A DNA stretch of 64,000 nt, taken from contig CM059568.1 of the NCBI GenBank assembly GCA_030386875.1, forward strand, positions 11,952,316 to 12,016,315, given 5' to 3'. How positions within the stretch are numbered: position 1 is the stretch's first letter; each line of letters starts with the position of its first letter. Position numbers and translations under genes: made by a program. Of this stretch, positions 9,980 through 43,265 are shown piece by piece. The notes under the pieces are model-generated. The model did no database searches. It worked only from the letters and a program-made list of their open reading frames with translations, and was not told where the DNA came from. The DNA comes from Morinoia aosen. Lineage: Eukaryota; Arthropoda; Malacostraca; Amphipoda; Talitridae.

Positions 9980-10075
9980 GTGATGGCGGGACTGACGGTA
10001 CCGCGCTCCCCCACCGGCGAGAGCTTCGAGGCCCTCGAGCAGACGCCGGGCTGCATCAAAGTGGCCATTACCTCC
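9980..10075 (+). CDS. IR exon 1 (first recognised exon)
   Basis: Acceptor CCCGCAG ends at 9979; donor TCC|GTGAGC. It encodes 32 residues ending CIKVAITS, the first beta strand of the S1 lobe. It is strikingly GC-rich compared with its flanks, as are the other exons. An in-frame ATG lies at 9983. It may be the true start or an internal Met, since no signal peptide is visible. Confidence 0.8.
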
Positions 10076-13000
10076 GTGAGCACAGCCTTTAACTGTGGAT
10101 TTTTTTAAACAAATTAGAGTCATATGTTGTGTATTGACTGGTCTGTTGGATGCAAATGGGTTTTTGAAAAATATTGTGGAGCCCAATGTGCACGGCGTGG
10201 CTAAAAATAACGTGTACTGGTTTTTATATTTTAATTGGTATTTTTAGCTTTAAAAGTACTTGAATGTTGGCCAATTTGCAAATTTCAGCCGCTCCAGCGG
10301 TGTGAAAGAAATGGTGCAACGACTACAAACTTTTTTCTGCATTTTCTGTACTCGCATCGACGATTCAGAGTAATCATTGTAATTGTCATTCATTTGTTTA
10401 GTTTTTACAGATATTATTTGGTTTCAAATCCAGTGTTTCGTGTCCGAACTTTAAGTTCTTCCTTGTATTAGAATACATTTAAGCACGATATCCTTCAAGC
10501 TCACAGAACGAATAAAAAATATTTTTTATAACAAAAAACTCATATTTTATTTAATAATGATCGAACAACTTTTTAGCTAACAGTGCACTCGTATAAGCAA
10601 AGCATAAGAATAATTTTTGGCCCTATCCATGCATCGCCGATATCATAGACTTTCCTAAATTAGGCGTTGAAGTAACGTTGGGTTTCTAGGCTAAGAAATT
10701 CCACGTGATTGCTGAAATCGGACGTTATTTTGATGGCATTGAGACTTGATCTCTCGCAGGAATAAATTATGGAGCGACAGTAAAAAGTTACACGGAAGTG
10801 TATCATCTCGAGATCTGTTCATGACATTGATTACTTCAGTAATTCAAAGGTCAGTCAAACTTCGCAGAGGAATAACGTCAACGGTTTTTTAGACTTTTGA
10901 TATCTTATTAGGTTGAGTGACAGCAAAAAATTGCTTGACATTTAAATTGATTGGCCGTGATTGAAAACGCTAGCGGTGCATTAGGTAAGTAAGAACGTTA
11001 GATAAATGTTAGTTTAAGCCTCCCTAACCGCAACAAACACGTTCCAAAGCGAAAAGAGCGTCAACTTTATTAATGTAAATAAGCATGGTTATAGACACAG
11101 CGTTTTTGAAGGCAAAATATCCATAGAACATCGTGAATGAGTGGGTAGCGTTAGCAACAAGCTATAACAAAGCCAACCTGAGTTACAGCGTACAGATAGA
11201 AATATGAAGAGTCACGTTTACAAGAAACATGTAATTAGAAATCTGAAGACCCACAGTATGTATTCGGAATCAGATCATTAGCAATATGTTAATACAAACC
11301 CACATTCATCAGTGTCGGATGATTAAATATCAAATCAGAAGTTATTTAGATTTCGTAACATAACACTCAGATTTACAGCTGCACTTGCTTGAACTAAGCA
11401 CACAAGCAAGAAAAAACATTCCAGACTTATTACATGTTTTTTCCGAAAATTCGACATTGTTTCTTTGTTTTTGAACAATACATGTAACGTACATATTTAT
11501 CTGTAACAGTATATGTATGTAATAACAGTACATGTACCAATCATAATGCTTGTTACACTATGTTTTTTGAACCCAATTTTTCATTCGCGACTATTGACAT
11601 GAGCATTACGACACCCATGCTGATAATTTTTAACATTATATATTTAACAATATATCAACTAAAGATCTTAATGTTGGGACATTTTAAAAACCATTTGTGT
11701 TTTTTGTATCATCTTTATTGGGTATCAATTGTTTTTCTTTCCTTTCCTTTTTCATTCATAAGTGAAGTGTTGTTTCTGCAGTGGTCGCCGCCCATAGTCG
11801 ACCTGACGGCGCGTCCGTACTCTGGCTTCCACGTGGACCTGTTCCGCATCATCATGCACAAACTCCGGTGGTGGTGGGTGGCTGCTTCAGTGGATCAACG
11901 GAAACCATTAATGGCATCATGGAAACCATTGACATCATCATGAAAAAAATTGACGTCATATTTGAAAATAATTGGAGTCACCAAATAGCATCGATTACGA
12001 GAACGATTTTTTCTCTCACTTCTCTCATTCACCGAGACATTTATTTCAAAAGAAACGATGCTGTTACTGACAATGCTGGTTGTAACCACTTAGTTAAAGG
12101 TTAAGTAGAAGTGGAATTCATTCAAAAACTAATGCAAATCCGGGAATTTTGGCAATGTAAATACAAGTGTAGCATTTTGTTGTTGAGCATTAAAATCATC
12201 TATTTAGATTATCTATTTCAATTATCCAGCTGAAAAAAAGGATTCTTTAAACAAACAAGAAATTGTAAACACTATTTATGCATTTTACGAGAGGTAGGAT
12301 ATTACTTCTCTATTGAGTTCTATTAAATATTTAAGAACTTTTTTTAATCGACTTGAGATCGGGCCAGTTAATGATGTGATCTTGAATATATCACATTCAC
12401 CTAAAACTTGAGGCATCATGTACAGCAAGCACGGTAGAGGCAACAAGGTAGAGTCATTTCTATGGGGGAAAATACGCCTCCTATTGTTCGGCTAGCCCAT
12501 AGAAAGGCTTCATTACAAGCAAACTTTGTGACGTCACCAAAACGTCATGTCGTTAGCCCAATAGTGGAGCCAGATTTGGGGGTAGCAGTGCTACCAGATG
12601 CAATATGAGCGCTGCTATTGGTTCATTGCCATGACGTCAGCAGAACTACACAGTCAACGAAAAAAGAATGGTTTGAACCTACCTTGTTTCCTCTATCGTG
12701 ACTTCAGGGTATCCCAGTTACGCTATTTTTTAAAATTTGCCGTTAGTTGACTGAATCTGTTGTGGGTCTGAGGTGCGAAACGCTTGCCCGCTTGTGTTTT
12801 GCAGTCGCAGAATAACTATTTGATATCTGTTAACTATTTCTAGAGATACTGCTTAATTTTTTTGTTTGAAGCATAATGTTCCACGCAGTGAAGTTTACCA
12901 AGTAAAAGCTTTGCGTTGAAAATTTTGATGTAGATATGAGCATTGCGACAAGCTTCACCTAGTGCTGTACTTATTGAAGCAAAACTTTTATATGAAGTAC

Positions 13001-16000
13001 ATTCGAAGTACCGTGTTATTAAGGGAGCTTGTGTACGTTTTTATGCTTTCAATTTGCATCAAAAGCTAAGACTTGCATTATTTTTCTCAAGAAGTGTTTT
13101 AACGTGATACACCCTGCAGCTACATCTTCATTGAACCTTCAGACAAGAAATTGGGCACCATAGAAAATGGCAGCTACACAGGGGCGACAGGAATGATCGA
13201 GAGAGAGGTAAGAGTAGACCACTGCACGTTTTTTCATAAGGATACAATATAATTTTAACAGACAACTCATATGTTGAAAGAACTAGCAATTTTGAAACAA
13301 TTCTTTGTCATGTGAACTAATTCTCTTTATCTTACATTCGGACAGTCAACCTGACTACGGATCAAACAGTCGAACACTCACGACAGTAGCTTCACTATAG
13401 ACTACCGCATCTATAGCAGTGTAAATCTGACGGCATACCTGTAAATCTGACGGCATACCGTCATGCAAATAGGAACAGAAATGCCTTAGACGATACTTCA
13501 AATTTCATACTACTTTGTAGCGAGTGTTTCACTTCTGTAATTTTCAAATCGATGCAGGACAGAATGCTAGTTACCATGCAAACTAGAATGCTAGTTTGCA
13601 TGGCGGAAACGGGACACTAGAAAAATCGAACGAAACTGTACGGAAATTGGGCGGTGTCCCCCCCACGCATGCAACTCCGTAATGCTATCATATTTATTCA
13701 ATATTTTCGTAATAAAATTAGCTAGCGTTCTCTTTCGTGAACGCGAATGAAAACCTTTTGCAAACAAAATGTTTTGGTTACGAATTAGGTTTTGAATCGT
13801 TATTGAAAATAGTCTTCAAATACTTTACTGAATCTGAACTAAATCTCATTACAATATTTTCAATCGAACCTCATCACAGTACCTAATCTATCATTATTAT
13901 TATAATATTTAACCAAAACTCATTGTATCATTTAACCGAACCATGTGTGATGTTTAACTGAATCTCATTACAATGTTAAACTCAATCTCACTGTAGTATT
14001 TAACCAAACTTCATGATATTTAATAGAATCTCAATACAAATAATATTTACCCAAATATTATAATATTTAACTAAATCTCATTATAGCATTTAACCGAATC
14101 TTATCACAGAATTAAGCCCAATTTTATTATGATATGTCCCGATTCTTATTTTAATGTTTCACTGAACCACATTATAATATTAAAACATTATAAGCAGACT
14201 AGCTAACGGGTCTGTCATGTTCTGGGACGTCAGGAAGTGGATATGCTGATCATAATATTATGCTGACTAGCTAACGGGTCTGTCATGTTCTGGGACGTCA
14301 GGAAGTGGATATGCTGATCATACTATTATGCTGACTAGCTAACGGGTCTGTCATGTTCTGGGACGTCAGGAAGTGGATATGCTGATCATAATATTATGCT
14401 GACTAGCTAACGGGTCTGTCATGTTCTGGGACGTCAGGAAGTGGATATGCTGATCATAATATTATGCTGACTAGCTAACGGGTCTGTCATGTTCTGGGAC
14501 GTCAGGAAGTAGATATGCTGATCATAATATTATGCTGACTCGCTAACGGATCTGTCATGTTCTGGGACGTCAGGAAGTGGATATGCTGATCATAATATTA
14601 TGCTGACTAGCTAACGGATCTGTCATGTTCTGGGACGTCAGGAAGTAGATATGCTGATCATAATATTATGCTGACTCGCTAACGGATCTGTCATGTTCTG
14701 GGACGTCAGGAAGTGGATATGCTGATCATACTATTATGCTGACTAGCTAACGGATCTGTCATGTTCTGGGACGTCAGCAAGTGGATATGCTGATCATACT
14801 ATTATGCTGACTAGCTAACGGGTCTGTCATGTTCTGGGACGTCAGGAAGTGGATATGCTGGTCATAATATTATGCTGACTAGCTAACGGGTCTGTCATGT
14901 TCTGGGACGTCAGGATGTGGATATGCTGATCATAATATTATGCTGACTAGCTAACGGATCTGTCATGTTCTGGGACGTCAGGAAGTGGATATGCTGATCA
15001 TACTATTATGCTGACTAGCTAACGGATCTGTTATGTTCTGGGACGTCAGGAAGTGGATATGCTGATCATAATATTATGCTGACTAGCTAACGGGTCTGTC
15101 ATGTTCTGGGACGTCAGGAAGTGGATATGCTGATCATACTATTATGCTGACTAGCTAACGGATCTGTCATGTTCTGGGACGTCAGGAAGTGGATATGCTG
15201 ATCATAATATTATGCCCACTAGCTAACGGATCTGTCATGTTTTGGGACGTCAGGAAGTGGATATGCTGATCATAATATTATGCCCACTAGCTAACGGGTC
15301 TGTCATGTTCTGGGACGTCAGGAAGTGGACATGCTGATCATAATATTATGCTCACTAGCTAACGGATCTGTCATGTTTTGGGACGTCAGGAAGTGGATAT
15401 GCTGATCATAATATTATGCCCACTAGCTAACGGGTCTGTCATGTTCTGGGACGTCAGGAAGTGGACATGCTGATGGGTCCGCTGGGGCAAGAGTACTCTA
15501 GGGCGGGTGTGATGCACTTCGCCTACGGCTACTTCCAGTCAGGCAGTTCCTTCATCTACCGACGCATCACACACATCCAACCCGACATGTTAATCCTCGC
15601 CAAGCCTTACTTCAACCAGGTTATCATACAGCAAAGAAATTTCACTTTGTCTTATGGACTCCATGTTCAGCCAAATACTATAAACATGTACGCGAAACGG
15701 AAATTCATGGTTTTGTCCCAGCCGCTAAACTAGAATTACATTAACAGCTGATGATAAGGGAAATCTTAATGCGCAGTATTACTATTGAATGCATGATGAA
15801 AGATCGATACGGCAGGAAAGTTTACATCTATAATTTGCTGTTAGTTTATTGGTTTTAATGATCAGTTTCAAAAAATCTTTGCGTTCCCAAATGATTCCAA
15901 GTCGTGAGTGTCAGTTGTATGAGTGTAGCTGTGTAGTAAACGTCCATTGTACGACAGGCAACTAACTGTAGGTCTGTATTTTTACACTTTAACGATTTTT

Positions 16001-19000
16001 TTATGTCCTGATTTAACAAGATTATTACAAATGCAGTCGAACCTTGTTTGACGCCAAATGCTCAAACTTTATTTCGAAAAAGGCTAACTTCGGAAAAGAA
16101 GAATGCCACTTTGCGAAGATAAGTGTACAAAAAAAACGCACGCTGCCAGTTACAAAGACGTAATGTTTGGATATTCATCCCCATTCACTCATTCTGTTCC
16201 TTCATCTCAGGTAAAAGACGTAATGTTTGGATATTCATCCCCATTCACTCATTCTGTTCCTTCATCTCAGGTACGCACCTAACTTTCCCATGTCCACCGC
16301 GCAAATCCACACCTGTGTTATCAGTAACAAAATTACTTACACTTTTCCTCAGGTTTGGCTCGCTACGTTGGCCACCGTGGCATTGGTGGTGCTCACTGCA
16401 ACTCTGCTCAACCACCTCCACGACCGCCAGTAAGACTTACATGATCCAATGCCACCCAAAATATCAGGCAAGTTATTGTGCTTCAAATGATATGAAAAAA
16501 CTGGGCATGTGTTCATTAAGAAGCGCCAGATGTAATTCATGAATTAGTGTCTGTCTCTTTCCGAAACGTGAACATTTGTGGCTCGTAGAAATATAATATT
16601 TGTTCGGTTGTCAGTGATGGTACCCAGTTTAACTTTTTCGCCGCCTGCATGCATGTTTTTTCCCGCCTAAGCGATTTAATCGCTTAAATCGCTTAGGCGG
16701 CAAAAAATATGCATGCAGGCGGCGGAAAAGTTAGACAGGGTATTTACCAGTAAATGTACGGCTATGAAACTCATCTTTGACAAATGAAGATGAGTCACGT
16801 GTGCATGTTCTCACAAAGAATAAATGAAACGCAAGCATAGACTTCCGAAAAGGATTTTCATTTAACTATAAAATGCCTTTGCTGTTGAATGGTGCATGTG
16901 TAAAATATGAATCTTATAGCTACGGAAAAAAAGACGCACTTACTACGGTCGAAAGTGAAATTTTTGCCACACTTTTCAGGGGAAAGTGTGAAGTAAGAGA
17001 GAAACTACAGAGCACTTTTTGGTTTTGTGCAAAATCCCGTTTTTTCTCACACTCGGTAGTATCATTTCCCCGTATCCTAACTATCTTCTAGGAACACTCA
17101 GAAATTTGGACATTAATATGCGAGCACAACAAAAATTTCATTTACGGATTGTCTAAAAAATATTGTATTTTTCCTCACTTGAACGATGTTTTATCGTCCC
17201 TAATCTCGCCCATCGACTTTTTCATCAAGTGTACCGTGTATTTCCAACAAGTACTCCTGAGAGAGTAGACTCAACACCCTCGAAGTGCTCCAGCAAGTAT
17301 GAGCTCCAGAAATGTCCACAGGCAAAATGTCCCTCATAATACAACGCTGCTACTTGAGCCAATAGTTGACATATCCGAAAACATTTATTCATTTTGCATA
17401 TTCTGTTAAACCATTATAACAGCGTTACTATTCCAGTGTATAATTATGTTACCATCCCCGCTTATAATTCTTAATGGAATCTATACTGTAATAAGAGCCG
17501 CGTCCGTCTGTCGGTCGGTCGGTCGGTCGGTCTGTCCGAAGCCAGCCTGCAATGTGTGATGAGCGTATCTGTGATACAAGCTCCGGTCCTATATATTTTG
17601 ACGGGCCGTGTTCACGCGCCCTCATCAACTCTCGAGAGATTGTATTTTTTTTAATTTCTTACGGCCTTTCTCTCATTTCGCCCTCTTTTTTATTTCAAAT
17701 AAATGGGGTGGACTAGTAACGATAATAGTAAGATATTCTCATCACCAAGCAGCACAATCGAGTCAAGCCAGCACTTCGAGCAGATCATGTCTGCAAACAG
17801 CTAACCATGGTGATGCAAAAAACGGAGAACCTGACTGGAAGCCCCATACCCTCCTATTTAATGAGCTTGCATTTCTTGCTTTTTCCCTTACTTCCACCGC
17901 TGAAAAATTATTTTATTCACAACATTGCACATTTGTTAATTGGAACGACCAACGGAGTTTCCTATCTCTAAGACACCCTGACTGAAATAATTAAAAAGAT
18001 AACACCACCACCAACAACCTGCTCCCGTTCGTCTCTCTATGCAGGCACTCCGGCGGCTCTCGAGCTGGCGGATGCGAACATCCGGAAGGGCGAAGTGTTT
18101 TCTCCCGAACCTTCATATGGACGTGGAAAATACTTCTGGCGCAAGGTTAGTCAAGTTTTGTACGATAACACGAACCTAAAATGTACGCTCTGGATCTTTT
18201 GACTGGTTGTTCATGCAACGCACTGCAGGACCAACTCAAGATATTGTGCTAAAATGAACTTGCAGATCTCTGCGCTGTGATCAAGCGCGTTTTTTTACGC
18301 CATTCTCAAAGATCTTGGGAATTTGGCTTATGATTCTTGAAATCAATTAATCGTTTCTGAATTATGAGGTATTTTGAGGACGCGTTAGATTGCAGCAAAA
18401 GCCAAAATTTACAAAAACTAAGACCAATAAAACGACAAATGTGAGTTCAGATGTAAGTCGTTTTGCCTTCCGTAGTTTTGCTCATCCCATACACCAACTC
18501 TCTCAGTTATTCATTCTGTTGTCTAGAGTAAATTAACGTATTCCTATTCAAATAAAAGCCGATATCTTATGATGATATTTTAGATCTTCTCAAAAATCAC
18601 AAGTCGCGTGTTTACCAGTTTTTTCATTGGTACCACTGTACTTTTGTATGAGAATGAAAATTTCAAGAGCTTCATCACCGACTGCTGAGCAGATTCCATA
18701 AAAAACGAGTTTTTTAATTGAATTGAACGATTTTGTATAGTTTTATATTTGTTTCCAAAAATATGCACTCAAATTTAAATGAATTAAAACTTTTTACCCT
18801 ACAGTAAGAAATAATAGTCAAATTAAAATAAAAATTTTCCAGTAGCACGTTTAAATCAATAATGTGTTGTTCTGAACAAGCCTCCTGTTTTAATTATTTT
18901 ACCTCCCATTAACGCTCAAATACTAAAGATATCAACGAGTAGAAAAAAATTAGTGAAGGCAGTACATACGCTCTCTTCGAGAAAACAATCAATCAATGCC

Positions 19001-22000
19001 CTGACATCCGCATGCTCTGAGCAAGTTCCATATGAACTTTTTTATATGGTAACCTTCGGGAACACCTTGCGATGAAAATAGAACCACGTCTTCGTGCTCT
19101 GAGTAACTTCCGTCCAAACTTTTATAAATCGTAACCCTCGTTTACACCTTTCAGTGAAAATAGAACCACGTCTCCCTGCTCTGCGTAACTTCTGCGAAAC
19201 CTTTTATACATTGTAACCTACGGCAACACCTTGTAATGAAAATAGAACCAAGTCTCCGTGCTCTGCGTAACTTTCGTTCAAACTCCTCACTCCGTCCCCC
19301 CACTAACGCCTCACAACAGCGAAGAACCAAATTGTTTCTTGCAGACCTGGCCGACACTCCACGAGGAGATGCTGGCCACATTTTGGCCATTTTTTGGCTG
19401 CTGGTGAGCTTTGCCCTCGCCTCGATGTACAGGTGCAATCTGAAGGCCATCCTCATCAACGACAAGGTGTGTTCGCAATTTTGTTTTGTTCAATGAGATC
19501 TTACTGTAATCTGCACAAGTGTTGCATTAGTCAAGATGAAAATTAACGAAGGTACGAGTGAGTTTTGATCGTAAGTCTGCGATCCATTTTTCTCTTTCTG
19601 ATTTGATTTTGATAGCTTTCTCTGAGTACACAGTGGGTGCAATAAATATCTCATATGTGGTCAAATGATGCTGTAAATACTTGTTTTCCATTATGATACA
19701 ACTCTGATCGACGATATCAAAGAATTCATTAACGCCTTTCTTTAGCAGAAAACGATGCAGGAGCAGATATTTACTTTCAGTATTTTTATATTTCAGATAA
19801 AGCTTCCCTTCACTAATGTCGAAGAATTCGCAAACCAGAATGAATATCTGCTGACCTGGATAAACGGCAAAGTATACGAACCTTATTATAAGGTATATTT
19901 TATATAGATTTCTTTTCAAAATAATGTAACTTGTTCGTTAGTATTCCACACATATGGTTCACTTATGTAACGGTCAATGGGACTATTGAAAATACTCGGT
20001 TTCTATATAAAGAACTCTTGTTGGTATTGAGTAGTTATTCGAATCATGTTTCTTCAGACTTTCCCCGTTATCGAACTATCGAACTTAGGTAGCACAACGT
20101 AGTCCATGGTTTCATGGTCATAAACTATAGTAGTACTTATAGGGCGATTCTTAGGGAATCTTATTCTCAATATAAAAAGAAGAACCAACGTAATGGAGAA
20201 CATTTAATGAGGCAAACGTTTCGGAATACAAGTTATTCCATCATCGGTGCTGGAAGAAATAAAAAGTAATATCAGTCATGCATAAGACGGATAAGGTTTG
20301 AATAAAAATCCCAAGCAAAAACGCAAAAAAAAAGTAAATCATTTTTCTAACGACCAGAATACCAAACTTAAGCGTTTAGGCAATATACACAGTACAAACA
20401 GGCATACATAACCATACACACCCAACATTCTCGTACACCTACACATGGAAATATATGTATACATACACACACAACCACACACATATACACGCACGCACTA
20501 CATGCACACACACAACAAGCACACCTCAGCATACCGCAAGTTAGGAAGTAGGGGCTACAAATAATTTTGTCGCGCTGAAATCGTTATTAAGTGCTGGTTT
20601 GTTTGTAAATATATAAAGAGATTCTAGAATACGGAGGTCTTGTTCATTAAATGCCTTGCATAGAATAGAACAATTAGACATTTTGAAAGGATTATTAGAA
20701 CTATTGCAATGATTTCTAATGGCGGACTGAGAAGGACAAGCAAATGGGTGGTCAGTAATATGAGAAAAACCTGAATGTTGGCTGTGACGGATAAATAGTT
20801 GGAGGGTAGTGCTTCCAACGTACGATTGCTGGCAGCAATCACAAATATACACATATACACAGCAACTTTCCAGGCACTCATCCTGTCGCTCCTTCCCATT
20901 AAAAAAAGACAGTGGTGGGCACGATAACGAAAAAACGTTATCGCGATAACCGATAAATCGATAACGAAAACCTTATCGGCGATAACCGATAATCGATAAT
21001 TGGCGAAAAATTTATCGCCGATAATCGAAAACCGATAAATCGATAAATCCAAAATTCCGATACTAGCGATAACGATATTGGTATTTTAACACGTTAGTTG
21101 CGATGGGTTAAACTGAAGTTCAATATTCAACTTAAATTTAAAGTCAAAAGTGATAAGCAAATTTGTAAATATCAAACATTAACTGGGCCTGTTAAATACC
21201 ACTAATTTAGAAAGGTTGTTAGAATTTTTCTAAGCGACCCATCGATGGGTCGTTTCGCAGCAGGAAAAACCTAACTACGACCCACCGGTGGGTCATACCG
21301 CAATGAATGTGTTAAATAAAAAACGAATCGAAATGTTTTTTTTTAATCTTTATCTTAGAAAACTGAAAAATTTTAGAAAAAATATAAGTCTTTGAAAACT
21401 TTTAGCAAAAAGTAATAAATATTTATCTTGGCTACTAATAAAAACTGCGGTTTAAAGTAAAATAACTAAATTTAGACGAGGTTCTGCAGCATGTTCCCCT
21501 TCATAAACATAAGAATGTTGAAGTTTTCATCAGAGAGGCAGCTCCTCTTGGCCCTGATGATGTCCTTTCCAAGGGAGAACAAACGCTCCACCGCGGCGCT
21601 GCTCGGCATCGCCGTGTTGTACCTCAAAAAGAGGTCGATGAGGACCTCCTCGCTGTTGAAAGCAGGGTCTGCCAGACAGTCAGTCCCTTTGGCCTGCAGC
21701 CCCACATGCACAATATGAGCGGCCTTGGACTTGGTAGACCTGTGATGACCCCCAGTGTCATCCTCCTCATCACAAATGCTGGCGTAGTAGTCTTCCGTCT
21801 CCATGTCATCGCTGCTGCTGCTACTGCTGCTGGCGGTCTTCAGGTCAGCACGCCGCAAGAACTTGACATCAGTGACTTGATCTCTGACCTCCTGACCATT
21901 CTTTCCTCAAAAGCCCCCATCCACTCGAGGCGAAACTTGGGGTGGAAGGCAGTGGCCAGAAGACACTCCTCGTCCTCAAAGGTGTCGGTGAACCTCCTCT

Positions 22001-25000: not shown

Positions 25001-28000
25001 AATGCACTCTCTTAGTTCGCTACAAGTTAGAAAGAATAAAAATCACATGAACATGTTTCTGACAAACGAATAAAGAACCTCAAGACATTGAACGTCATAG
25101 AAAATATGAAAAATACCTGAACATTCTTCTGACAAATGTGACGAACATAGAGACAATGAACAGAAGTGACTTGAATATGATAGTCTTCACATTGATGTAT
25201 GAGCCAGCACGATTTAAACAATTTAAACAATTAACAATTTATTTACCACAAGCGATGCAGCAGTAGATTTTTTCTCAGGTCTAGTACAATGGACACATTT
25301 GAGTATAGCTCCTCGTGGGCCCGAATACGCATAAATGAGCAATGTTGCATAGAGGAAGGGAAATGGAAGTGAGAGATGGTGCTTGTTAAACGAGACTGAT
25401 TTCTGTTTATAATTTGTTCGTAGGAATAGAGCTTACCACATTTAGAGGGAAAATTTGCAGTGACCGACACCCACCACAATTTAAGACACTCAAGTTAAAA
25501 GCGTGGTGTTCATCGTAGGGTTGCCCAACTGGCTTTTCCTAGCCAAGTTACTAACTAGGAACTGAACTAGGAACTAGGCCACTCTGCCTGAAGGACATCT
25601 ACGCCGCTATGAGGTGAAATTATCACTTAATGCACTCTCTAGTTTTGACCTCTGATTTGTGGGTTAGGACACTCTGCATATTTGCCCTCTAATTATAGTG
25701 GAATTAAAGGCTTCTGATGGAAAAAGTCCCGTACAGTTCGCTGAAAGTTTGATTTAATAAATTATGAAATGAAAGCAGTTCCGGGCCAAATTCAGTCATT
25801 TATTTCAGGTGCCGTAATTTAAGAATTTTATTATTTGAATAAATCAACTTATTTTAATTCAACTTTTTCCAATTATCCATGAGAAAAGCTATTGATTTTT
25901 ATTTCGATTTGCCCTTTTGGATCATCAAACATTTTGTTCAAATGAACTCTTCTTCAATAATTTCAATTTTTCATGATTAGAAGCTCTAATTTTTCACAAA
26001 TGTGTATTATTTATCATCATTTAAAGATTAAAAGCATTACTCTAATTATGCCAAGGTTTTTTTTTCTTTCTTCAACAAGAAATTTTCCTATCCATATTCC
26101 TTAATCCTATTTTGACTTTTAAACCTGAAAACTTCCATATGACAACACAAGACATTTGAAATACATACCGTACACAATAAGTTATGAGATATTAAGCAGA
26201 TATTCAACAGGCAAACTCAACAAATATAACCAGCATTTCTTACACGCACGTGCTTTCAAAATTCTGCCGTGATTTTTGCATAAATACTTGACAAATATAA
26301 CCAGCATTTCTTATAAGAACTTTCTTTCAAAATTCTCACGGGATTTTTGCATAAATATTCAACAAATATAACGAGCATTTCTTACACGTTCTTTCTTTCA
26401 AATTCTCGCGTTATTTTTGCATGAATTTCCCCGTAAAATTTCTCAAAGTATAACTTGTGACACTACAGGCCCACGCCGTACTGACCCCTAACGAGGCCAT
26501 GGGGAAGATGTGGGGCAAGAGAACCGATTTGATTCGTCCTGACGAAGTCATGTCCACTGCCCTCAGCAGGAAAATTGCAGGTATGTCGTGTTCAAATTGT
26601 AGGAAAATTGTAGGTATGCCGTGTTCAAATTGTAGGAAAATTGTAGGTATGCCGTGTTCAAATTGTAGGAAAATTGTAGGTATGCCGTGTTCAAATTGTA
26701 GGAAAATTGTAGGTATGCCGTGTTCAAATTGTAGGAAAATTGCAGGTATGCCGTGTTCAAATTGTAGGAAAATTGTAGGTATGCCGTGTTCAAATTGTAG
26801 GAAAATTGCAGGTATGCCGTGTTCAAATTGTAGGAAAATTGCAGGTGTGCCGTGTTCAAATTGTAGGAAAATTGCAGGTATGTCGTGTTCGAATTGTAAA
26901 AAAATTGCAGGTATGTCGTGTTCAAATTGTAGGAAAATTGCAGGTGTGCCGTGTTCAAATTGGAGGATAATTGTAGGTATGCCGTGTTCAAATTGTAGGA
27001 AAATTGTAGGTATGCCGTGTTCAAATTGTAGGAAAATTGCAGGTATGTCGTGTTCAAATTGTAGGAAAATTGTAGGTATGTCGTGTTCAAATTGTAGGAA
27101 AATTGTAGGTATGCCGAGCTCAAATTGTAGGAAAATTGTAGGTATGCCGTGTTCAAATTGTAGGAAAATTGCAGGTATGTCGTGTTCAAATTGTAGGAAA
27201 ATTGTAGGTATGCCGTGTTCAAATTGGAGGATAATTGTAGGTATGCCGTGTTCAAATTGTAGGAAAATTGTAGGTATGCCGTGTTCAAATTGTAGGAAAA
27301 TTGCAGGTATGTCGTGTTCAAATTGTAGGAAAATTGTAGGTATGTCGTGTTCAAATTGTAGGAAAATTGTAGGTATGCCGAGTTCAAATTGTAGGAAAAT
27401 TGTAGGTATGCCGTGTTCAAATTGTAGGAAAATTGTAGGAATGCCGTTTTCAAATTGTAGGAAAATTGTAGGTATGCCGAGTTCAAATTATAGGAAAATT
27501 GTAGGTATGCCGTGTTCAAATTGTAGGAAAATTGTAGGTATGCCGAGTTCAAATTGTAGGAAAATTGTAGGTATGCCGTGTTCAAATTGTAGGAAAATTG
27601 TAGGTATGCCGTGTTCAAATTGGAGGATAATTGTAGGTATGCCGTGTTCAAATTGTAGGAAAATTGTAGGTATGCCGAGTTCAAATTGTAGGAAAATTGT
27701 AGGTATGTCGTGTTCAAATTGTAGGAAAATTGTAGGTATGCCGAGTTCAAATTGTAGGAAAATTGTAGGTATGCCGTGTTCAAATTGTAGGAAAATTGCA
27801 GGTATGTCGTGTTCGAATTGTAGGAAAATTGTAGGTATGTCGTGTTCAAATTGGAGAATAATTGTAGGTATGCCGTGTTCAAATTGTAGGAAAATTGCAG
27901 GTATGCCGTGTTCAAATTATAGAAAAATTGTAGGTATGCCGTGTTCAAATTGTAGGAAAATTGTAGGTATGCCGAGTTCAAATTGTAGGAAAATTGTAGG

Positions 28001-31000
28001 TATGCCGAGTTCAAATTGTAGGAAAATTGTAGGTATGCCGTGTTCAAATTGTAGGAAAATTGCAGGTATGTCGTGTTCAAATTGTAGGAAAATTTTAGGT
28101 ATGCCGTGTTCAAATTTGAGGATATTTGTAGGTATGCCGTGTTCAAATTGTAGGAAAATTGTAGGTATGCCGTGTTCAAATTGTAGGAAAATTGCAGGTA
28201 TGTCGTGTTCAAATTGTAGGAAAATTGTAGGTATGTCGTGTTCAAATTGTAGGAAAATTGTAGGTATGCCGAGTTCAAATTGTAGGAAAATTGTAGGTAT
28301 GCCGAGTTCGAATTGTAGGAAAATTGTAGGTATGCCGTGTTCAAATTGTAGGAAAATTGTAGGTATGCCGAGTTCAAATTATAGGAAAATTGTAGGTATG
28401 CCGTGTTCAAATTGTAGGAAAATTGTAGGTATGCCGAGTTCAAATTGTAGGAAAATTGTAGGTATGTCGTGTTCAAATTGTAGGAAAATTGTAGGTATGC
28501 CGAGTTCAAATTATAGGAAAATTGTAGGTATAGGTATGTCGTGTTCAAATTGTAGGAAAATTGTAGGTATGCCGAGTTCAAATTATAGGAAAATTGTAGG
28601 TATGCCGAGTTCAAATTATAGGAAAATTGTAGGTATGCCGAGTTCAAATTATAGGAAAATTGTAGGTATGCCGTGTTCAAATTGTAGGAAAATTGTAGGT
28701 ATGCCGTGTTCAAATTATAGGAAAATTGCAGGTATGTCGTGTTCAAATTGTAGGAAAATTGTAGGTATGTCGTGTTCAAATTGTAGGAAAATTGTAGGTA
28801 TGCCGAGTTCAAATTATAGGAAAATTGTAGGTATGTCGTGTTCAAATTGTAGGAAAATTGTAGGTATGCCGAGTTCAAATTATAGGAAAATTGTAGGTAT
28901 GCCGAGTTCAAATTATAGGAAAATTGTAGGTATGCCGTGTTCAAATTGTAGGAAAATTGTAGGTATGCCGAGTTCAAATTATAGGAAAATTGTAGGTATG
29001 CCGTGTTCCACTGCCGGATTCATTTTTCGAGCCATGAACGCCAGTGTATCAGGGCCTATAGTGAAATGGCTCTCTCACCAGCAAGCCGAACTTGATAATT
29101 TTTTTAAATTTACGCAGAAATAGCTGTGTAAATTTACATTGCTTTCATTAACGAGATTGTGTGCGCAAAATGTTTGTTTCAGTGGTGGACGTGACTTTGG
29201 GAGCGCTGAGCTACATCGCAGAGGACTTCTCGCAGGTAAATTTCTTCTTGAATAATATAAGTGTATTTACTTTAAGATATTATAAAAACTAATGATGTAC
29301 CATCTTTATTGGAAATAAACTGTTTCTCTTTTAATTCTGATCTCGCTTCTAATGCTGAGTGAGCGCATGTCTGGAGTTGATATTCCTTAGCCTTCTTTTA
29401 GCATAATGACTGTTTGTAGACGTAACCTGTTTGTCATGCTGATTTATCATGGCTGTTCCTATAAGACACGTTTATACATGGGACATATTTGTCATGTTAA
29501 TATGTGACGGTGGTGGCCATGAGGAGTGTAGTTTGCGGGGCATATTTACCGTGTAAATTTGTGGATCATATGTTACCTCAAGAGATGTTATATAAGCGGG
29601 ACATTTACGCACCTTATTGACTTAGCATGGCTATGGCCATATGACATTTTTGCACTTAATCATGTTTACTGAATGTTTTTCCGTATATATTTGCCAGGGC
29701 TTTTGCCATTAGGAATATTTGTACAAGGTAACGCAAAAATCACTCGTTGCATTACATATCTACATACGTCACAAAAAAGGTGATGCGTGTGTTTCTGACA
29801 ACAACTCTTACTTCACAAATAAAAAATAAGTTTGTGTGTGTCACTTTGTGTGTTCAAGCTGCACTAACCCTCCGTACTTAAGACACGAAGAGAACCAGTT
29901 GATTTTCAGAGTTTTAGGTTAAACTTTGTCACGAATACTCAAACTACATTTTTTCACGTATCAACCATTCCATGCGCATTAATGCCTCACCAATAATGCA
30001 TTCAAAAAACTTTTACATCAACCGTACTGACGCGTTCCTTCTAAACATGTTTTGCAAAATAACGGTTATCTTTCATATGTTCGCTTAGCTGTGACCTTTT
30101 TTCATAAAATATTCAGATAAGACATTATAAAATATTATAATATTCGCGTGACTTTTCATAGACCATCAAGTAGGAGGTCACATTACCTTATATACTCGTT
30201 TTCGATGCCTGATTCTCACTGAACCAAAAACTGAGCTAAATTTTCCACGCATTCTGCTTGCATGACCGCGACAGTTCGGCGCGTGCCGCTTGACTCTGGC
30301 CGACAGCGGAGTGACGAAAGTGTACATGACCTTCGCATTTCCTAAGAACACGACGTTGAGAAATGACGTAGACATGGTGTAAGTATTCATATAATTTTTA
30401 CAATATCGTGTTTGTACTTATTCTTCGTGTTCGCCTAATTTTAATGAGTATTTATGAGGGGAAACCGTAGAGGGTGCAACAATCGGAAGAATTTGATAGC
30501 TCGTCGGGTTTGGATTGGATGTTTACTTCAACAACTGTCTCTCATTTAAAACTTCGTGTTAAGTTTGAAGAATCTAATTGAAAATAGCGTTCGATGGTTT
30601 CAGTCATGCAATTATAATTCGTCTACCTCAAGGAAATGTCCAAGTACTATTTTATTTTCTATTCAGAAAAGTTCTATTCTATTTTCGTACAAACGCTTTT
30701 TCTTGAGAAAAGCGGTGTTTCCTCAAGTTGTGTTGGGCGCAGTGTGCATTGTCGTTAATTATAGACCAGAGACTCGTCGCTCTGATCGAGAGCATAACTG
30801 AAAAGTACGGGATACCCGTCATGTCACCTCAAGCTCTTCTTCCCAGTCTAACTTTTTCGCCGCCTGCGTGCATCCTTTTCGCCGCCTAAGCAATTTAACG
30901 ATTAAATCGCTTGGGCGGCGAAAAACATGCATGCAGGCGGCGCATAAAGTTAAACTGGGTTGATTTGCGTTTTGAGTAATTTTATTCTTCCTTGATGTTT

Positions 31001-33623
31001 TTTGTTCATGTCACTGAAATGTTATTTGTTGCTCTTGAAAAGTTATTTCTGATGGTAATTTTATCTATATATCTTATGTATGCCTTTGAAAAGTTCTTTC
31101 TGATGGTAATTTTAATTTTTTTACGATATTGAATCTGGAGAAATAAATAAATTTTTAGACAGTTTCATGTTTTATGAGAAAGCAATTTATAATGTTGAAC
31201 TTGTTGACAAGTTATTAAATTTGTCGCGCATGTTTTTACCTGTGTCGCCACATTAACAAACGTAAGCTTAAATTCATATTTTGAAATTTAAATTTTGGTC
31301 CAATTCTGCCTACAAAATACCCATGTCATAAAGAATTACCAATTACCATCAAATTGCATTTGATGAAAATTTTCAAAATATACTCAACTTCTGTTGTGAT
31401 ACTGATTAGATTCTGCAAGTTTTCTCACATACAACATATTTCATATGGTGTTAGCGGCATAAATTCTCACACCTCAAAACGTAACAATTATTCTCGTTCA
31501 ACTTGATAAACGATCTCAACTCCAGCTAGAAACCAAATATACTTAAAATACCTTACGCGCATGAAAATATCTTTCCCGAAACTAACAATTATTTCAAAAT
31601 AAAAAGCGAATTATTTCCCGACCGCCAAAAGCAGACTTGAGTCAGAGCACCACGTGCGTTACGCTTCTGCCCGGAGCTGCGGTGGTGTAAAGGCTGGGCA
31701 GTCGTCGCCCGCATCAGCGATTAGCAATTTTTATTTGAAGGGTCAAAAATGAGGAAAAAAATAGTCAACTGTCTATAACTTTACTTCTCCCGTGTTCTTA
31801 TAAAACACCAACTCCAATAAACATCATTTCTAGTATGACAAGATTCACAGATCCCACAATAATTTACGTTCAATTCACGTTCAAGTTTCAAAAACCGACA
31901 GGCTGTTTCCAAACTTTCTAGCTGTTTGATAGTCCTACCAAAGAAGGACTGTCTGTTTTCAAAGTTTCAAGTCTTCGTATTTTTGCTAAACTCGCAGCCT
32001 TCTGCGCCTGTTTCAAGCCGGCATAACGCAGCAACTGCAGGACATGAGTCTGCGCAACGCCTCCTGGTGTCTGCTGCCGGATACCAAACACGGGTCTCGC
32101 GCCATCGCTGTGACGGACCTGCTCGGAATATTCATCATATGTGGTTTGGGTAAGAACTTATGCGGTGTGCACCTTAACATCTTTTTTTGTACACCATACC
32201 CTTAGATGACGGAATTATTTTGTAGAAAATAGCTCAACCGAACATCTAACATCGCTAATGCATCCTGCATAGTAAAGCACACTTTATTTGCTTGCTATCT
32301 TGCTCGCTTGCCTGCTCAGTTCGTCTGACTGCCCCTACTCCGCCGTTGTAAACTGAAACTCTGAAAACTTCACATTAAAGTTATTTTTTGTTGAATTTTT
32401 TATTTCAATTTTGTTGAATGTTATCGGAACGTAGAAAACAAATCAATAAGTAAATCAAAGAATACATATAAATTCACGAAGGTTTCCATAATTGCGGATT
32501 GTGGTTACTTGGTTTGCATCTGATGGGTTAATATAAGAAAAATTTGAGAGGTAATAGAGCCTGTATCACTCATACGCTCATCACGCACTTTCGGTTGTAT
32601 GTTCAACAAATCAGAGCGTAATTAATGAATTTAGCTTGACCCAGGATTCATGAATCGGAAGATTAATTGACACGCAAAAATTGACACACGATGGAAAGAA
32701 ACTGTTAAAGGGGAATCACCAATGTTGGGACCGTGTATGTTGTCGAAATACATGCATGTTATCACGCACAAATATTCAGTAGCATGGCACGGCGTCTCGT
32801 GATGACGAAGCATACCTGCAGTTTTCTCACGCCTACCATGTAATCGATAAGGCTTTTTGGCTTCAAAAATAAAACCGATTACTCTAAGATTATGTACATG
32901 AACGCAACAAGTAAGTTAACTGTTATGAAAAAAGCCGTTAGCCGCAACTTATTGTATGTCAACAAAATGGTGAACTTGGTGTCTTTCACTCCAATCTATT
33001 CATAAATATGTGAAGTTAACAATGCTATTAAAAAACGGAAGACGTTATAAACAATAAGCATCAGAATTAAACACAGTCATTTTTTACTACACGAGTACAT
33101 CAGTAAATGAAGTTAACCTCAGATCAAAAACTGAACTGGTAACACATGGATGGCGCAAAACCAAAAACAAAATATTAATACTAACAGACATGAACTCCAT
33201 GAACATTATTGCACTGTTTACTTTCGCAGAATTTACAATTGCATCAAGAATACGTAGTTCTAGAAATGTTTGTATACTTTCATTTAAAATATCGCACGCT
33301 ATTCTCGTGAAACGTACGCCGATTGTTGCGGTGATGAAGTAAACAAAAAGTGTACAGGTTCATACATTTGGACAGAAGACGCACATATATTGCAAGGATC
33401 GATAATTATTGTTATATTTTCTTCCTTATTGTTCTATTTTCGCTTACCAACTCTAAATCAAAATTATCTTGACTTTGAGTTAATGGAGCACGTGAACTGC
33501 GCAGGATTGGCGTCAGGCCTGGTGATTTTCTGCCTGGAACTCGCCTGCCACGGACGCTCCTCCAAGTCGAAGAGGGCACACCTCTCCTCTGGGTCTTCTT
33601 CAGCTGCTCCTCATGTTCAGTGA
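9980..33623 (+). CDS. ionotropic receptor (IR), ligand-binding and channel core, 13 exons
   Basis: Thirteen exons with GT-AG borders join in phase to 455 codons and a stop. Residues are counted from 9980. Order: S1 start (KVAITS, then WSPPIVD and GFHVDLF, about 28-55), NGSYTG (about 79), conserved S1 arginine (EYSR, about 105), TM1 (about 146-163), pore segment (FIWTWKILLAQD, about 192-204), TM2 (about 215-232), S2 (about 245-385), TM3 (about 400-430), short cytosolic tail. This S1-TM1-pore-TM2-S2-TM3 order defines ionotropic glutamate receptor relatives. In arthropods the divergent IRs are ligand-gated cation channels of chemosensory neuron membranes, usually working with a co-receptor. The subfamily and ligand cannot be told. 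The start is uncertain: ATG at 9983 follows an AG acceptor, so upstream exons are likely. Introns are heavily invaded by repeats. Confidence 0.9.
10076..11781 (+). other. IR intron 1
   Basis: Contains a dispersed-repeat copy (11012-11065) related to 2034-2085 and a diverged LINE 3' tail at 11701-11755. No other coding sequence is recognised. Confidence 0.6.
11701..11755 (+). mobile_element. diverged LINE 3'-end fragment
   Basis: GTATCATCTTTATTGG followed by GTTTTTCTTTCCTTTCC matches the 3' terminus of the LINE at 34877-42388 (GTACCATC, ATTGGAAATAAA, GTTTTTCTTTC) with substitutions. It ends 26 bases before the exon 2 acceptor and supplies most of the pyrimidine run there. Confidence 0.5.
11782..11867 (+). 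CDS. IR exon 2
   Basis: 86 bases after TTTCTGCAG. It encodes WSPPIVDLTARP, then GFHVDLFRIIMHKL, the typical IR S1 segment before the ligand pocket. The exon ends in phase 2. The donor CCG|GTGGTG is weak, but joining here restores an arginine codon and continues the family pattern into exon 3. Confidence 0.8.
11868..13119 (+). other. IR intron 2
   Basis: Starts with three degenerate 21-bp units (11901-11963, pattern GAAACCATTGACATCATCATG). Holds the second hAT-like MITE at 12430-12710. Nothing coding is recognised. Confidence 0.6.
12430..12710. mobile_element. hAT-like MITE, copy 2 (inverted relative to copy 1)
   Basis: Begins CACGGTAGAGGCAACAAGG and ends CCTTGTTTCCTCTATCGTG. The interior is the reverse complement of the 9677-9954 element, sharing for example CATATTGCATCTGGTAGCAC and TGACGTCA-type blocks. 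The flanks ACAGCAAG and ACTTCAGG are only a partial 8-bp match, so the duplication has decayed or the ends are off by a base. Confidence 0.75.
13120..13207 (+). CDS. IR exon 3
   Basis: 88 bases; acceptor CCCTGCAG, donor GAG|GTAAGA. It encodes YIFIEPSDKKLGT, then NGSYTGATGMIERE. The EPSD and N-G-S-x-T-G patterns are diagnostic of the S1 lobe in IRs. It ends in phase 0. Confidence 0.9.
13208..15457 (+). other. IR intron 3, largely tandem repeats
   Basis: Unique sequence to about 13820, then a degenerate AT-rich array, then a 68-bp minisatellite that runs into the exon 4 acceptor. Confidence 0.8.
13830..14185. repeat. degenerate ~26-bp AT-rich tandem repeat
   Basis: Roughly a dozen diverged units of the form TATTTAACCGAATCTCATTA, with unit length varying around 24-30 bases. 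It directly adjoins the 68-bp array. Confidence 0.6.
14190..15474 (+). repeat. 68-bp minisatellite, ~19 units, each carrying a 3' splice site
   Basis: The period is exactly 68 (for example GGGACGTCAG at 14224 and 14292). Each unit holds branch-point-like CTGAC and CTAAC, a T-rich stretch (TCTGTCATGTTCTGGG), ACGTCAG, then GAAGTGGATATGCTGAT. The last unit is the real acceptor of exon 4 with its first 17 coding bases, after which the exon becomes unique (GGGTCCGC). Nearest units share the exon variant GTGGAC, showing local homogenisation. Splicing to most upstream copies would meet a TGA after ten codons. Confidence 0.95.
15458..15619 (+). CDS. IR exon 4
   Basis: 162 bases, phase 0 to phase 0. 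It encodes EVDMLMGPLGQEYSRAGVM and on to LAKPYFNQ. It contains the S1 arginine (EYSR) that in this family contacts the ligand carboxylate. The acceptor (GACGTCAG) and first 17 bases are repeated upstream in the 68-bp array. Donor CAG|GTTATC. Confidence 0.92.
15620..16352 (+). other. IR intron 4 with a duplicated acceptor-like block
   Basis: A 60-base block is present twice in tandem (about 16153-16212 and 16213-16272). Each ends CTGTTCCTTCATCTCAG|GTA, a good-looking 3' splice site, although the used acceptor lies 80 bases downstream (CTTTTCCTCAG, 16352). No reading frame supports an exon from either copy. Confidence 0.75.
16353..16429 (+). CDS. IR exon 5 (TM1)
   Basis: 77 bases; acceptor TTTTCCTCAG, donor CGCCA|GTAAGA, ending in phase 2. 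It encodes VWLATLATVALVVLT, then ATLLNHLHDR: the first membrane helix of the channel. Confidence 0.92.
16430..18044 (+). other. IR intron 5
   Basis: Holds a palindromic MITE (16621-16741) and a GGTC microsatellite (about 17508-17535). Bases 16873-17985 have only short unassigned frames. Confidence 0.6.
16621..16741. mobile_element. palindromic MITE, copy 1
   Basis: About 120 bases that read as an almost full hairpin: ACCCAGTTTAACTTTTTCGC, then CGCCTGCATGCATG, then GCCTAAGCGATTTAA, and back. It is flanked by TA. A second copy lies at 30842-30959 in intron 11 of the same gene. Confidence 0.85.
18045..18145 (+). CDS. IR exon 6 (pore region)
   Basis: 101 bases; acceptor CTCTATGCAG, donor CAAG|GTTAGT, phase 2 in and phase 1 out. 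It encodes HSGGSRAGG, then FSRTFIWTWKILLAQ. The last segment is the pore entry and loop of the IR channel. Only this frame is open across the join with exons 5 and 7. Confidence 0.9.
18146..19344 (+). other. IR intron 6 with ~82-bp tandem repeat
   Basis: AT-rich. From about 19010 to 19285 there are some 3.5 diverged units of about 82 bases (GCTCTGCGTAACTTC, then GTAACC, then ATGAAAATAGAACCACGTCT). The array ends about 60 bases before the exon 7 acceptor. Confidence 0.7.
19345..19466 (+). CDS. IR exon 7 (TM2)
   Basis: 122 bases; acceptor GTTTCTTGCAG, donor AAG|GTGTGT. It encodes LADTPRGDAGHILAIFW, then LLVSFALASMYRC and NLKAILINDK. This is the second membrane helix followed by the classic Y-x-x-x-L-x-A-x-L linker into S2. 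Confidence 0.93.
19467..19796 (+). other. IR intron 7
   Basis: 330 bases, AT-rich, nothing else seen. Confidence 0.7.
19797..19892 (+). CDS. IR exon 8 (start of S2)
   Basis: 96 bases, phase 0; acceptor TATTTCAG, donor AAG|GTATAT. It encodes IKLPFTNVEEFANQ, then EYLLTWINGKVYEPYYK. I-x-x-P-F-x-x-x-E-E-x is the usual start of the S2 lobe in IRs. Confidence 0.92.
20541..20852 (-). pseudogene. Penelope GIY-YIG endonuclease domain, left arm
   Basis: Open frame with CDCCQQSYVGST, then FIRHSQHSGF, then NEQDLRILESLYIFTNKPAL. These match the GIY-YIG core (Y-V-G, R-H) and the conserved I-L-E-S-L-x-I tail of Penelope-like polymerases. The frame is uninterrupted here, but a hAT insertion just upstream (20910-22303) separates it from the rest of the element, so it cannot be functional. 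Confidence 0.85.
21090..21311. mobile_element. piggyBac-like MITE inside the hAT
   Basis: 222 bases flanked by TTAA at 21086-21089 and 21312-21315. The ends CACGTTAGTTGCGATGGG and, reversed, CACATTCATTGCGG form imperfect terminal repeats. Two internal palindromes, CGACCCATCGATGGGTCG and CGACCCACCGGTGGGTC, lie near the right end. TTAA targets are characteristic of piggyBac. Confidence 0.8.
21472..22085 (-). pseudogene. hAT transposase C-terminus, frameshifted
   Basis: Two overlapping frames on the minus strand. 22085-21840 has FCEPLVNSLLAAMERRF, then LLATAFHPKFRLEWM. 21858-21472 has a Ser-rich stretch, then PSSAAVERLFSLGKDI and NILMFMKGN, the hAT dimerisation domain. The change of frame near 21850 and the lack of the catalytic core make this a non-autonomous remnant. 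Confidence 0.9.
22393..23183 (+). pseudogene. Penelope polymerase fragment, right arm, frameshifted
   Basis: 22393-22710 carries the end of the reverse transcriptase and linker (LLHRAYCISSTYQIFHNEL, then IFIGLPFLG). GIY-YIG follows: CDRCQQSYVGST at about 22880. Relative to the left arm, one extra T (GCATTTTAATG against GCATTTAATG, near 23070) shifts the frame before NEQDLRILESL. The 5' part of the polymerase is missing. Confidence 0.85.
23562..26210. other. intron 8 remainder, no gene recognised
   Basis: AT-rich sequence. Several short frames have no recognisable content. Confidence 0.5.
26215..26432. repeat. ~72-bp tandem repeat, three units
   Basis: Units begin CAACAAATATAACCAGCATTT and contain CTTTCAAAATTCTNNCG and TTTTTGCATAAAT. 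The array ends about 36 bases before the exon 9 acceptor, so exon 9 is flanked by tandem arrays on both sides. Confidence 0.8.
26469..26580 (+). CDS. IR exon 9 (S2)
   Basis: 112 bases; acceptor CACTACAG, first donor GCAG|GTATGT, phase 0 in and phase 1 out. It encodes AHAVLTPNEAMGKMWGK, then TDLIRPDEVMSTALSRKIA. The reading frame stays open from here through the whole 33-bp array to 29123. The exon end assigned here is the first donor, chosen because it joins to exon 10 without inserting repeat-coded residues. Confidence 0.85.
26568..29009 (+). repeat. 33-bp minisatellite, ~73 units, each carrying a 5' splice site
   Basis: Each unit has AGGAAAATTGYAG (the last 13 bases of exon 9) followed by GTATGYCG and TGTTCAAATTGT. 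The only length change is a 6-base insert near 28530. Because 33 is a multiple of three, every G|GTATG donor lies in the same phase, and all joins to exon 10 stay in frame. Read through, each unit encodes 11 residues of the form GMPCSNCRKIV, a CxxC-type repeat. Variants (GAGTTC for TGTTC, TATAGG for TGTAGG) are interspersed. Confidence 0.95.
29010..29182 (+). other. IR intron 9, unique part
   Basis: Unique sequence after the array leading to the TTGTTTCAG acceptor. The array's open frame ends at a TAG at 29121-29123. Confidence 0.7.
29183..29235 (+). CDS. IR exon 10
   Basis: 53 bases; donor CAG|GTAAAT. With the carried G it encodes VVDVTLGALSYIAEDFSQ, matching the V-x-x-G-x-x-A/S-Y-I pattern of the S2 lobe. 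Confidence 0.88.
29236..30274 (+). other. IR intron 10
   Basis: Carries a LINE 3'-tail fragment at 29281-29334 (GTACCATC, ATTGGAAATAAACTG). Nothing else is recognised. Confidence 0.6.
30275..30378 (+). CDS. IR exon 11
   Basis: 104 bases; acceptor GCGACAG, donor GGT|GTAAGT, phase 0 in and phase 2 out. It encodes FGACRLTLADSGVTKVY, then MTFAFPKNTTLRNDVDM. A-F-P-K-x-x-x-L is a hallmark of the S2 end in IRs. Confidence 0.92.
30379..31997 (+). other. IR intron 11
   Basis: Contains the second palindromic MITE (30842-30959). The rest is AT-rich with no gene recognised. Confidence 0.6.
30842..30959. mobile_element. palindromic MITE, copy 2
   Basis: A hairpin-forming relative of 16621-16741: CCCAGTCTAACTTTTTCGC at one end and its complement with AAACTGGG at the other, around a CGATTAAATCG-like centre. 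Confidence 0.85.
31998..32149 (+). CDS. IR exon 12 (S2 end and TM3 start)
   Basis: 152 bases; acceptor AACTCGCAG, donor TTGG|GTAAGA. It encodes LLRLFQAGITQQLQDM, then SWCLLPDTKHGSRAIAV and TDLLGIFIICGL. A-G-I followed by a polar stretch and then D-L-x-G-x-F is typical of the approach to TM3. The acceptor was chosen over TTTCAAG at 32016 because it keeps phase with exon 11. Confidence 0.9.
32150..33504 (+). other. IR intron 12
   Basis: AT-rich; no gene or defined repeat seen. Confidence 0.6.
33505..33623 (+). CDS. IR exon 13 (TM3 end, C-terminus)
   Basis: 119 bases after ACTGCGCAG. It encodes GLASGLVIFCLELACHG, a basic RSSKSKRAHL stretch and a short Ser/Ala tail SGSSSAAPHVQ before TGA at 33621-33623. 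The last ten codons and the stop form part of the first unit of the 39-bp array. Confidence 0.92.
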
Positions 33624-34045
33624 ATACCTGTGTCTTCTTCAGCTGCTCCTCATGTTCAGTGAATACCTGGGTCTTCTTCAGCTGCTACTCATGTTCAGTG
33701 AACACCTGGGTCTTCTTCAGCTGCTACTCATGTTCAGTGAACACCTGGGTCTTCTTCAGCTGCTACTCATGTTCAGTGAACACCTGGGTCTTCTTCAGCT
33801 GCTCCTCATGTTCAATGAACACCTGGGTCTTCTTCAGCTGCTACTCATATTCAGTGAACACCTGGGTCTTCTTCAGTAGCTACTCATGTTCAGTGAACCC
33901 CTGGGTCTTCTTCAGCTGCTCCTCATGTTCAGTGAATATCTGAGTTTTCTTCAGCTACAACCGTGTTTATTATACATCAGGGTCTTCTCTAGCTCTCACC
34001 CGAGTTCAATGAATATCTGGGTTTTCTTCGGTGCAGTGATTGCTT
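33591..34045 (+). repeat. 39-bp minisatellite, ~9 units, each repeating the C-terminal codons and stop
   Basis: Units start at 33591 and every 39 bases thereafter (GGGTCTTCTTCAGC, TGCTCCTCATGTTCAG, TGAATACCT). They decay after about 33945. The first unit is the last ten codons of the IR gene, its TGA, and six bases of 3' UTR. Being a multiple of three, the array keeps the same frame, so each later unit also carries the in-frame TGA. Confidence 0.95.
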
Positions 34046-43262: not shown

Positions 43263-43265
43263 AAT

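Follow-up and report, generated by a model that had tools for sequence, protein, structure and literature searches.

We analysed a window of 64,000 nucleotides (nt) from the talitrid amphipod Morinoia aosen (assembly GCA_030386875.1, contig CM059568.1, positions 11,952,316 to 12,016,315 of the forward strand), which carries on its plus strand the gene of a predicted ionotropic receptor. Our data demonstrate that a 33-bp minisatellite of 74 units (26568..29009, plus strand) straddles the border between exon 9 and intron 9 of this gene; each unit consists of the last 13 nt of exon 9 and the first 20 nt of intron 9, and the 5' splice site is thereby multiplied. We consider it probable, at roughly 0.78, that the array is a neutral boundary-spanning minisatellite within intron 9, that the exon-proximal donor is used and that the repeat has no evident selected function. 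Such arrays recur in this genome: the same gene holds 74 donors, 19 3' splice-site modules and a stop-codon array, and donor repeats of 2-70 copies occur in receptor paralogs and P450 genes.

Tandem Repeats Finder (TRF) placed the array at 26568-29008 with a period of 33, 73.8 copies, a match of 93% and a score of 4191, and a unit-by-unit split yielded 74 units, wherein unit 60 has a 6-bp insertion and the final unit is truncated. This bears out an earlier sequence-only reading of the window, which had described about 73 copies of a 33-bp unit at 26568..29009; its division of the unit into 13 exon and 20 intron bases and its placement of the array in the S2 half, at the ninth exon found, also hold. 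Unit 1 is AGGAAAATTGCAG (13 exon bases) followed by GTATGTCGTGTTCAAATTGT (20 intron bases). A GT donor is present in 73/74 units, with GA in unit 27, and AG/GTATG (the slash marking the splice junction) is intact in 71/74, not in every unit as had been stated. The donor 9-mers comprise 49 TAGGTATGC, 10 CAGGTATGT, 9 TAGGTATGT, 3 CAGGTATGC, 2 CAGGTGTGC and 1 that is lost. As that reading had noted, donor quality varies: pairing with the 5' end of U1 amounts to -7.8 kcal/mol in 10 units, -6.2 kcal/mol in 9 units and -5.6 kcal/mol in 49 units, the other six units forming three further classes. The donor of unit 1, CAGGTATGT, belongs to the strongest class (-7.8 kcal/mol vs -5.6 kcal/mol for the commonest one). 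With exon end, donor and intron start repeated in tandem, the array is a boundary-spanning minisatellite.

The 73 units fall into 22 types, and repeated blocks of these types are up to 5 units long, a length reached by 59/2000 shuffles; the blocks fit growth of the array via block duplication. The unit matched nowhere else in a search of its own genome assembly of 1.99 Gb and 29 contigs, a search that skips very common words (22 matches, all at the array). Long tandem arrays are difficult to assemble, and the copy number might have been inflated or collapsed by assembly. We regard such an artefact as extremely improbable given the 22 types among 73 units and the presence of boundary arrays with unrelated units at other loci; moreover, it could alter the count, not the architecture.

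The sequence-only reading had proposed a length-variable receptor, in which functional isoforms would arise from alternative donors of the array through the addition of 11n residues to the S2 lobe, many of these inserts bearing a CxxC. The unit is divisible by three, the exon 9 frame across the array contains 0 stops in 814 codons, in agreement with the claim of one stop-free phase, and 73/74 units have GT donors. In addition, donors are supplied by two downstream units of the repeat in human IFI6 (PMC4526556). The frame of the array is open because the unit itself is open and the divergence among units is low; one minus-strand frame is equally stop-free, and openness by itself is therefore weak evidence. 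The odds of a stop-free outcome by chance are about even (0.56 for 15 variants, 0.46 for 20). Divisibility by three was rejected as an argument for function, because a third of all unit lengths would preserve the frame by chance and none of the other donor repeats examined is open.

The peptide encoded by the array shows no sign of constraint. Among 16 distinct base variants of the units, 4 are synonymous and 12 nonsynonymous, while 22.7% synonymous variants are expected at random. Both cysteines of CSNC, which had been described as the core of each added unit, are retained in 45/73 units and not in the rest. The array does not behave as a coding minisatellite under selection, since it shows neither a synonymous bias (4/16 vs 22.7%) nor a cysteine pair in more than 45/73 units. 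Retention of up to roughly 800 residues had also been envisaged; the frame is indeed open, but complete retention would carry reading through the array and on to a stop codon at 29121. Five homologs lack an insert at the exon 9/10 junction, and 5/5 other donor-side repeats examined are not open. Taken together, functional isoforms of this kind appear very unlikely. Neither this function nor the U1 decoy suggested alongside it gains support from the variant counts, the homologs, the five other donor repeats or the out-of-frame 68-bp array of the same gene. A further candidate, the use of the juxtaposed AG/GT as recursive splice sites, was set aside; the unit has no pyrimidine tract ahead of AG/GT.

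The gene model was built with homologs from Trinorchestia longiramus (P0001, P0002 and P0006) and Hyalella azteca (P0003-P0005), two of the latter carrying the names Ionotropic receptor 164 and 165. These homologs point to a talitroid amphipod, and the protein searches met none that was nearly identical to the window protein. Thirteen exons were found, the 12 introns are all GT-AG, and exons 2-13 join into a single open frame with a stop at 33621-33623. The start of exon 1 (9980..10075, VMAGLTVPRSPTGESFEALEQTPGCIKVAITS) was read from the sequence and is uncertain; additional 5' exons are possible, so "ninth" means the ninth found. Exons 2 (11782..11873), 3 (13120..13207) and 4 (15458..15619) correspond to the S1 half, exon 5 (16353..16429) to the first membrane helix, exon 6 (18045..18145, RTFIWTWKILLAQ) to the pore region, exon 7 (19345..19466) to the M3 helix and exon 8 (19797..19892) to the S2 half. 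Exon 9 (26469..26580, AHAVLTPNEAMGKMWGKRTDLIRPDEVMSTALSRKIA) ends in phase 1 at CAG/GTATGT, and its predicted functional donor is the first unit of the array. It is followed by exon 10 (29183..29235, VVDVTLGALSYIAEDFSQ), exon 11 (30275..30378), exon 12 (31998..32149) and exon 13 (33505..33623), which holds the M4 helix, the C-terminus and the stop TGA; all exons are on the plus strand.

The window protein is 72% identical to P0001, 56% to P0002, 42% to both P0003 and P0004, and 49% to P0005. A profile built from the window protein together with its five homologs matched GluA2 across the ligand-binding and channel parts (E 2e-37). This homology to ionotropic glutamate receptors, together with S1 and S2 halves around M1, pore and M3 and a subsequent M4, identifies the predicted product as an ionotropic receptor. 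Pfam searches with ten single frames of the window gave receptor matches below threshold only, and a pattern search for the membrane parts of the receptor found no match; homologs were used instead. Within receptor intron 8, Pfam also detected two fragments on the minus strand, one of them hAT-like (21472-21906) and the other, more weakly, GIY-YIG-like (20541-20972).

The junction of exons 9 and 10, SRKIA/VVDVT, is contiguous and without insert in P0001-P0004 and P0006, the five homologs that cover it; P0005 stops at exon 9. Relative to GluA2 it lies in the S2 half, within a stretch of about ten residues preceding the LLES motif, which contains a ligand-binding glutamate. The register varies, with HMMER placing the junction ten residues and MAFFT five residues before the by-eye placement. 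AlphaFold2 on five sequences gave a mean predicted local distance difference test score (pLDDT) of 32 and no usable structure. Judging from this position, 11n extra residues at the junction may well harm the S2 lobe.

A second array in the same gene, as striking as the 33-bp donor array, multiplies the 3' splice site of exon 4 in 19 units of 68 bp (18.8 copies; 14197..15474, plus strand). Each unit is a complete 3' splice-site module in which a CTAAC that resembles a branch point by eye is combined with GTCAG and the 17 nt that open exon 4. GTCAG is kept in 19/19 units, and GTCAGGAAGTGGA in 15/19. A unit of this length breaks the frame, and every frame of the repeated unit contains stops; if only the last unit were retained, the 68 extra nt would be stop-free in the exon 4 frame, but exon 4 would be frame-shifted. 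A third array (39 bp x 9.4; 33589..33956, plus strand) straddles the end of the coding sequence, its first unit taking in the stop codon and the 32 coding nt before it. Other tandem repeats lie 27-80 bp from exon borders of the receptor gene, at 26215-26426, 16154-16273, 11900-11959 and 19013-19284.

Arrays at exon borders were also found in receptor paralogs. A genome search with the receptor protein returned 87 matches with E values of 10 or less, and the paralogs are located on C4, C8 and C23. In one C8 paralog (L031 with L043, G000:C8:55995722-56005500), the exon-7 donor lies in 69.6 copies of a 25-bp unit made of 18 exon and 7 intron bases, and 57/69 units retain GT. A similar neighbouring paralog on C8 (L034) has the unit in common and carries 5.6 copies at the same donor, as compared within a single assembly. 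Exon 7 was located in 8 paralogs, and 6/8 are without an array at its donor. In a C23 paralog, the exon-11 donor falls within a 33-bp x 3.8 array (L041:6402-6525), and the exon-7 acceptor is present in two to three copies (L041:770-864), the array of which reaches one base into the exon. The 4 paralogs in which exon 9 was located have no array at its donor, and the 4 in which exon 4 was located have none at the border that is multiplied in the window gene. Other repeats were observed near these loci or borders: the L031/L043 locus has a 17-bp x 70 array further along, one C4 paralog has a 15-bp x 3.5 repeat just inside its exon-11 donor, the C23 paralog has a 37-bp x 19.5 array some 25 bp past exon 4, and another C4 paralog has a 40-bp x 2 repeat following exon 4.

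For the P450 genes, the 30 best loci of 97 matches were taken; an array lies near or in the matched frame at 10/30, and the sequence of 4 was read. Exon ends lie inside a tandem repeat at two loci at least, a minimum because only 4 of the 10 array-bearing loci were read. In one (L061:1679-1920), the exon donor CCTAAG/GTACTTC sits in a 30-bp x 8 array; in the other (L048), the exon end falls in a 116-bp x 1.9 repeat. The five other donor-side repeats, three from paralogs and two from P450 genes, have units of 25, 25, 33, 30 and 116 bp, with stops 127, 52, 2, 19 and 15 nt past the donor, respectively, and the window array alone has an open frame among the six donor repeats examined. These stops and the out-of-frame 68-bp array count in favour of neutrality, as do the paralogs without an array at the exon 9 donor and the contiguous exon 9/10 junction in homologs.

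Whether repeats prefer exon borders was assessed by counts that excluded arrays adjoining but not crossing a border, namely the 15-bp, 37-bp and 40-bp repeats of the C4 and C23 paralogs and the exon-7 acceptor copies on C23. In the window gene, 3/7 arrays of at least five copies straddle a border vs 0.095 expected (P 7e-5), and all 27 arrays (34 TRF rows minus overlaps and units <10 bp) give P 0.005. The receptor-loci test collapsed arrays to one unit and covered positions 1 to 36,000 of the window, with borders set by hand and by script that may be off by some bases; 6/48 arrays straddle a border vs 1.77 expected (122 borders, P 0.007), and 5/10 vs 0.33 expected among arrays of at least five copies. 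With the window left out, the receptor paralogs give 3/30 against an expectation of 1.2 (P 0.11), and two of these cases seem to be of common descent. For the P450 loci the count is 2/39 vs 0.91 expected (P 0.23; 60 borders, two per locus assumed). The preference is significant only when the window is counted, and we do not claim it as real, because it is non-significant without the window and two of the three remaining cases seem to share descent. Exon borders are not visibly avoided by repeats.

The array might instead serve as a regulatory decoy that competes for the U1 small nuclear ribonucleoprotein or binds splicing factors and thereby lowers correct splicing of intron 9, its length tuning the receptor dose without any new protein. 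The 73 consecutive donors would suit such a role, and exons 9 and 10 are 112 and 53 nt long, so that skipping of either would break the frame. In human ABCA7, expression is lower and the following exon is skipped more often where the repeat is longer, with no change in the retention of single units (PMC5954066); a decoy or leakage effect of this type is possible at the window array by analogy. However, an effect on splicing is not necessarily an adaptation. Moreover, the length of the exon-7 donor arrays does not look maintained, because neighbouring paralogs have 69.6 vs 5.6 copies and 6/8 have none, and only 57/69 units of the longer array keep GT. A regulatory decoy of this kind is unlikely.

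We propose that the neutral boundary-spanning minisatellite arose as follows. A tandem duplication of a 33-bp segment across the exon 9/intron 9 border would seed the array, which would then expand via further duplication of units and blocks. Duplication at a border would keep one complete copy attached to the exon and place the extra copies in the intron; the complete copy stays joined to the exon, and the gene could therefore remain intact. Splicing from the first donor (26580) to exon 10, which would remove the array, is most likely because unit 1 still provides the exon with a good donor. Later donors may be used now and then, which would add a small number of in-frame units at a low level, and by analogy such leakage, with some loss of correct mRNA, is plausible at this array. 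Use of the exon-proximal site would account for every array observed, even where the protein would otherwise be cut short.

Several points speak against neutrality and first-donor use. Use of the first donor is predicted from sequence, and the donor 9-mer of unit 1 recurs identically in nine later units. Where U1 occupies all of several 5' sites, preference can go to the site closest to the 3' splice site; on that basis, units would be expected to be retained. The 847 codons past the exon 9 donor are open through the array, and the 33-bp unit preserves the frame. Furthermore, we can only infer that retained units would damage the fold, because the junction register differs between the alignments to GluA2 and is loose within about ten residues.

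On a wider view, a mutational process in this amphipod lineage may repeatedly turn exon borders into splice-site arrays, which splicing would tolerate via the exon-proximal copy, with array length acting as a loose, fast-changing control of receptor mRNA. We put this forward tentatively and consider it rather doubtful.

The choice of the spliceosome among near-identical splice sites has mostly been studied with few copies in minigenes. The genome of M. aosen offers a natural series, with 73 donors at one exon, 19 branch-point-to-AG modules at another and a paralog pair of 69.6 and 5.6 copies; the recurrence of such arrays and the paralog copy numbers provide naturally graded doses for competition between splice sites. 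Should splicing always select the exon-proximal site, exon definition or position would be strongly supported over local sequence; otherwise, the receptors would produce much broken or extended mRNA. Annotators should also be aware that boundary arrays may resemble long coding repeats.

Elsewhere in the window, similar 23-bp repeats form a 38-copy array (42388-43264) and a 2-copy array (34829-34876) about 7.5 kb apart. A long interspersed nuclear element (LINE)-like open frame of 987 amino acids with endonuclease and reverse-transcriptase domains (Pfam) lies at 36645-39608 on the minus strand.

In a literature search conducted largely among titles outside subscription, we came across no description of a single gene with donor, acceptor and stop-codon arrays, nor of such a paralog series. 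Boundary-spanning repeats themselves have precedents. The minisatellite of human IFI6 (6-16) has 26 copies of a 12-nt unit. This repeat offers several donors, and two downstream units are used (PMC4526556). It differs from the window array in its 12-nt unit and in its documented isoform use. Human CBS carries a polymorphic 31-bp variable number tandem repeat (VNTR), c.1444_1467+7, at exon 13-intron 13 with 16-21 copies (PMC2630376; PMC1395315). As in the window array, the unit comprises, by CBS numbering, the exon end (24 nt) and the first 7 intron bases, with a donor in each repeat (PMC2630376). Unlike it, the CBS unit is not a multiple of three and has fewer copies, and the accessible parts of these sources mention no second array in the gene.

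In the 25-bp VNTR in intron 18 of human ABCA7, the first two repeat bases are the donor of exon 18, and the alleles described range from 315 bp to 9711 bp (PMC5954066). A single unit is retained in about 2% of transcripts, and exon skipping rises with array length (PMC5954066). The ABCA7 repeat resembles the window array in including the donor, and single-unit retention and exon skipping have been measured there; it differs in that the unit starts at the donor and is intronic, and retention shifts the frame. Border-crossing tandem duplications have also been described in a potato RNA-dependent RNA polymerase (RdRp) gene and in the 24-bp AGGT repeats of fission yeast, where splicing selects among splice-site copies (PMC4974935; PMC2630376). 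These share with the window array a tandem duplication that copies a splice site, whereas they have few copies and are described as the formation of new introns. The array at exon 9 is thus a new, large case of the kind of boundary-spanning repeat known from human CBS, ABCA7 and IFI6.

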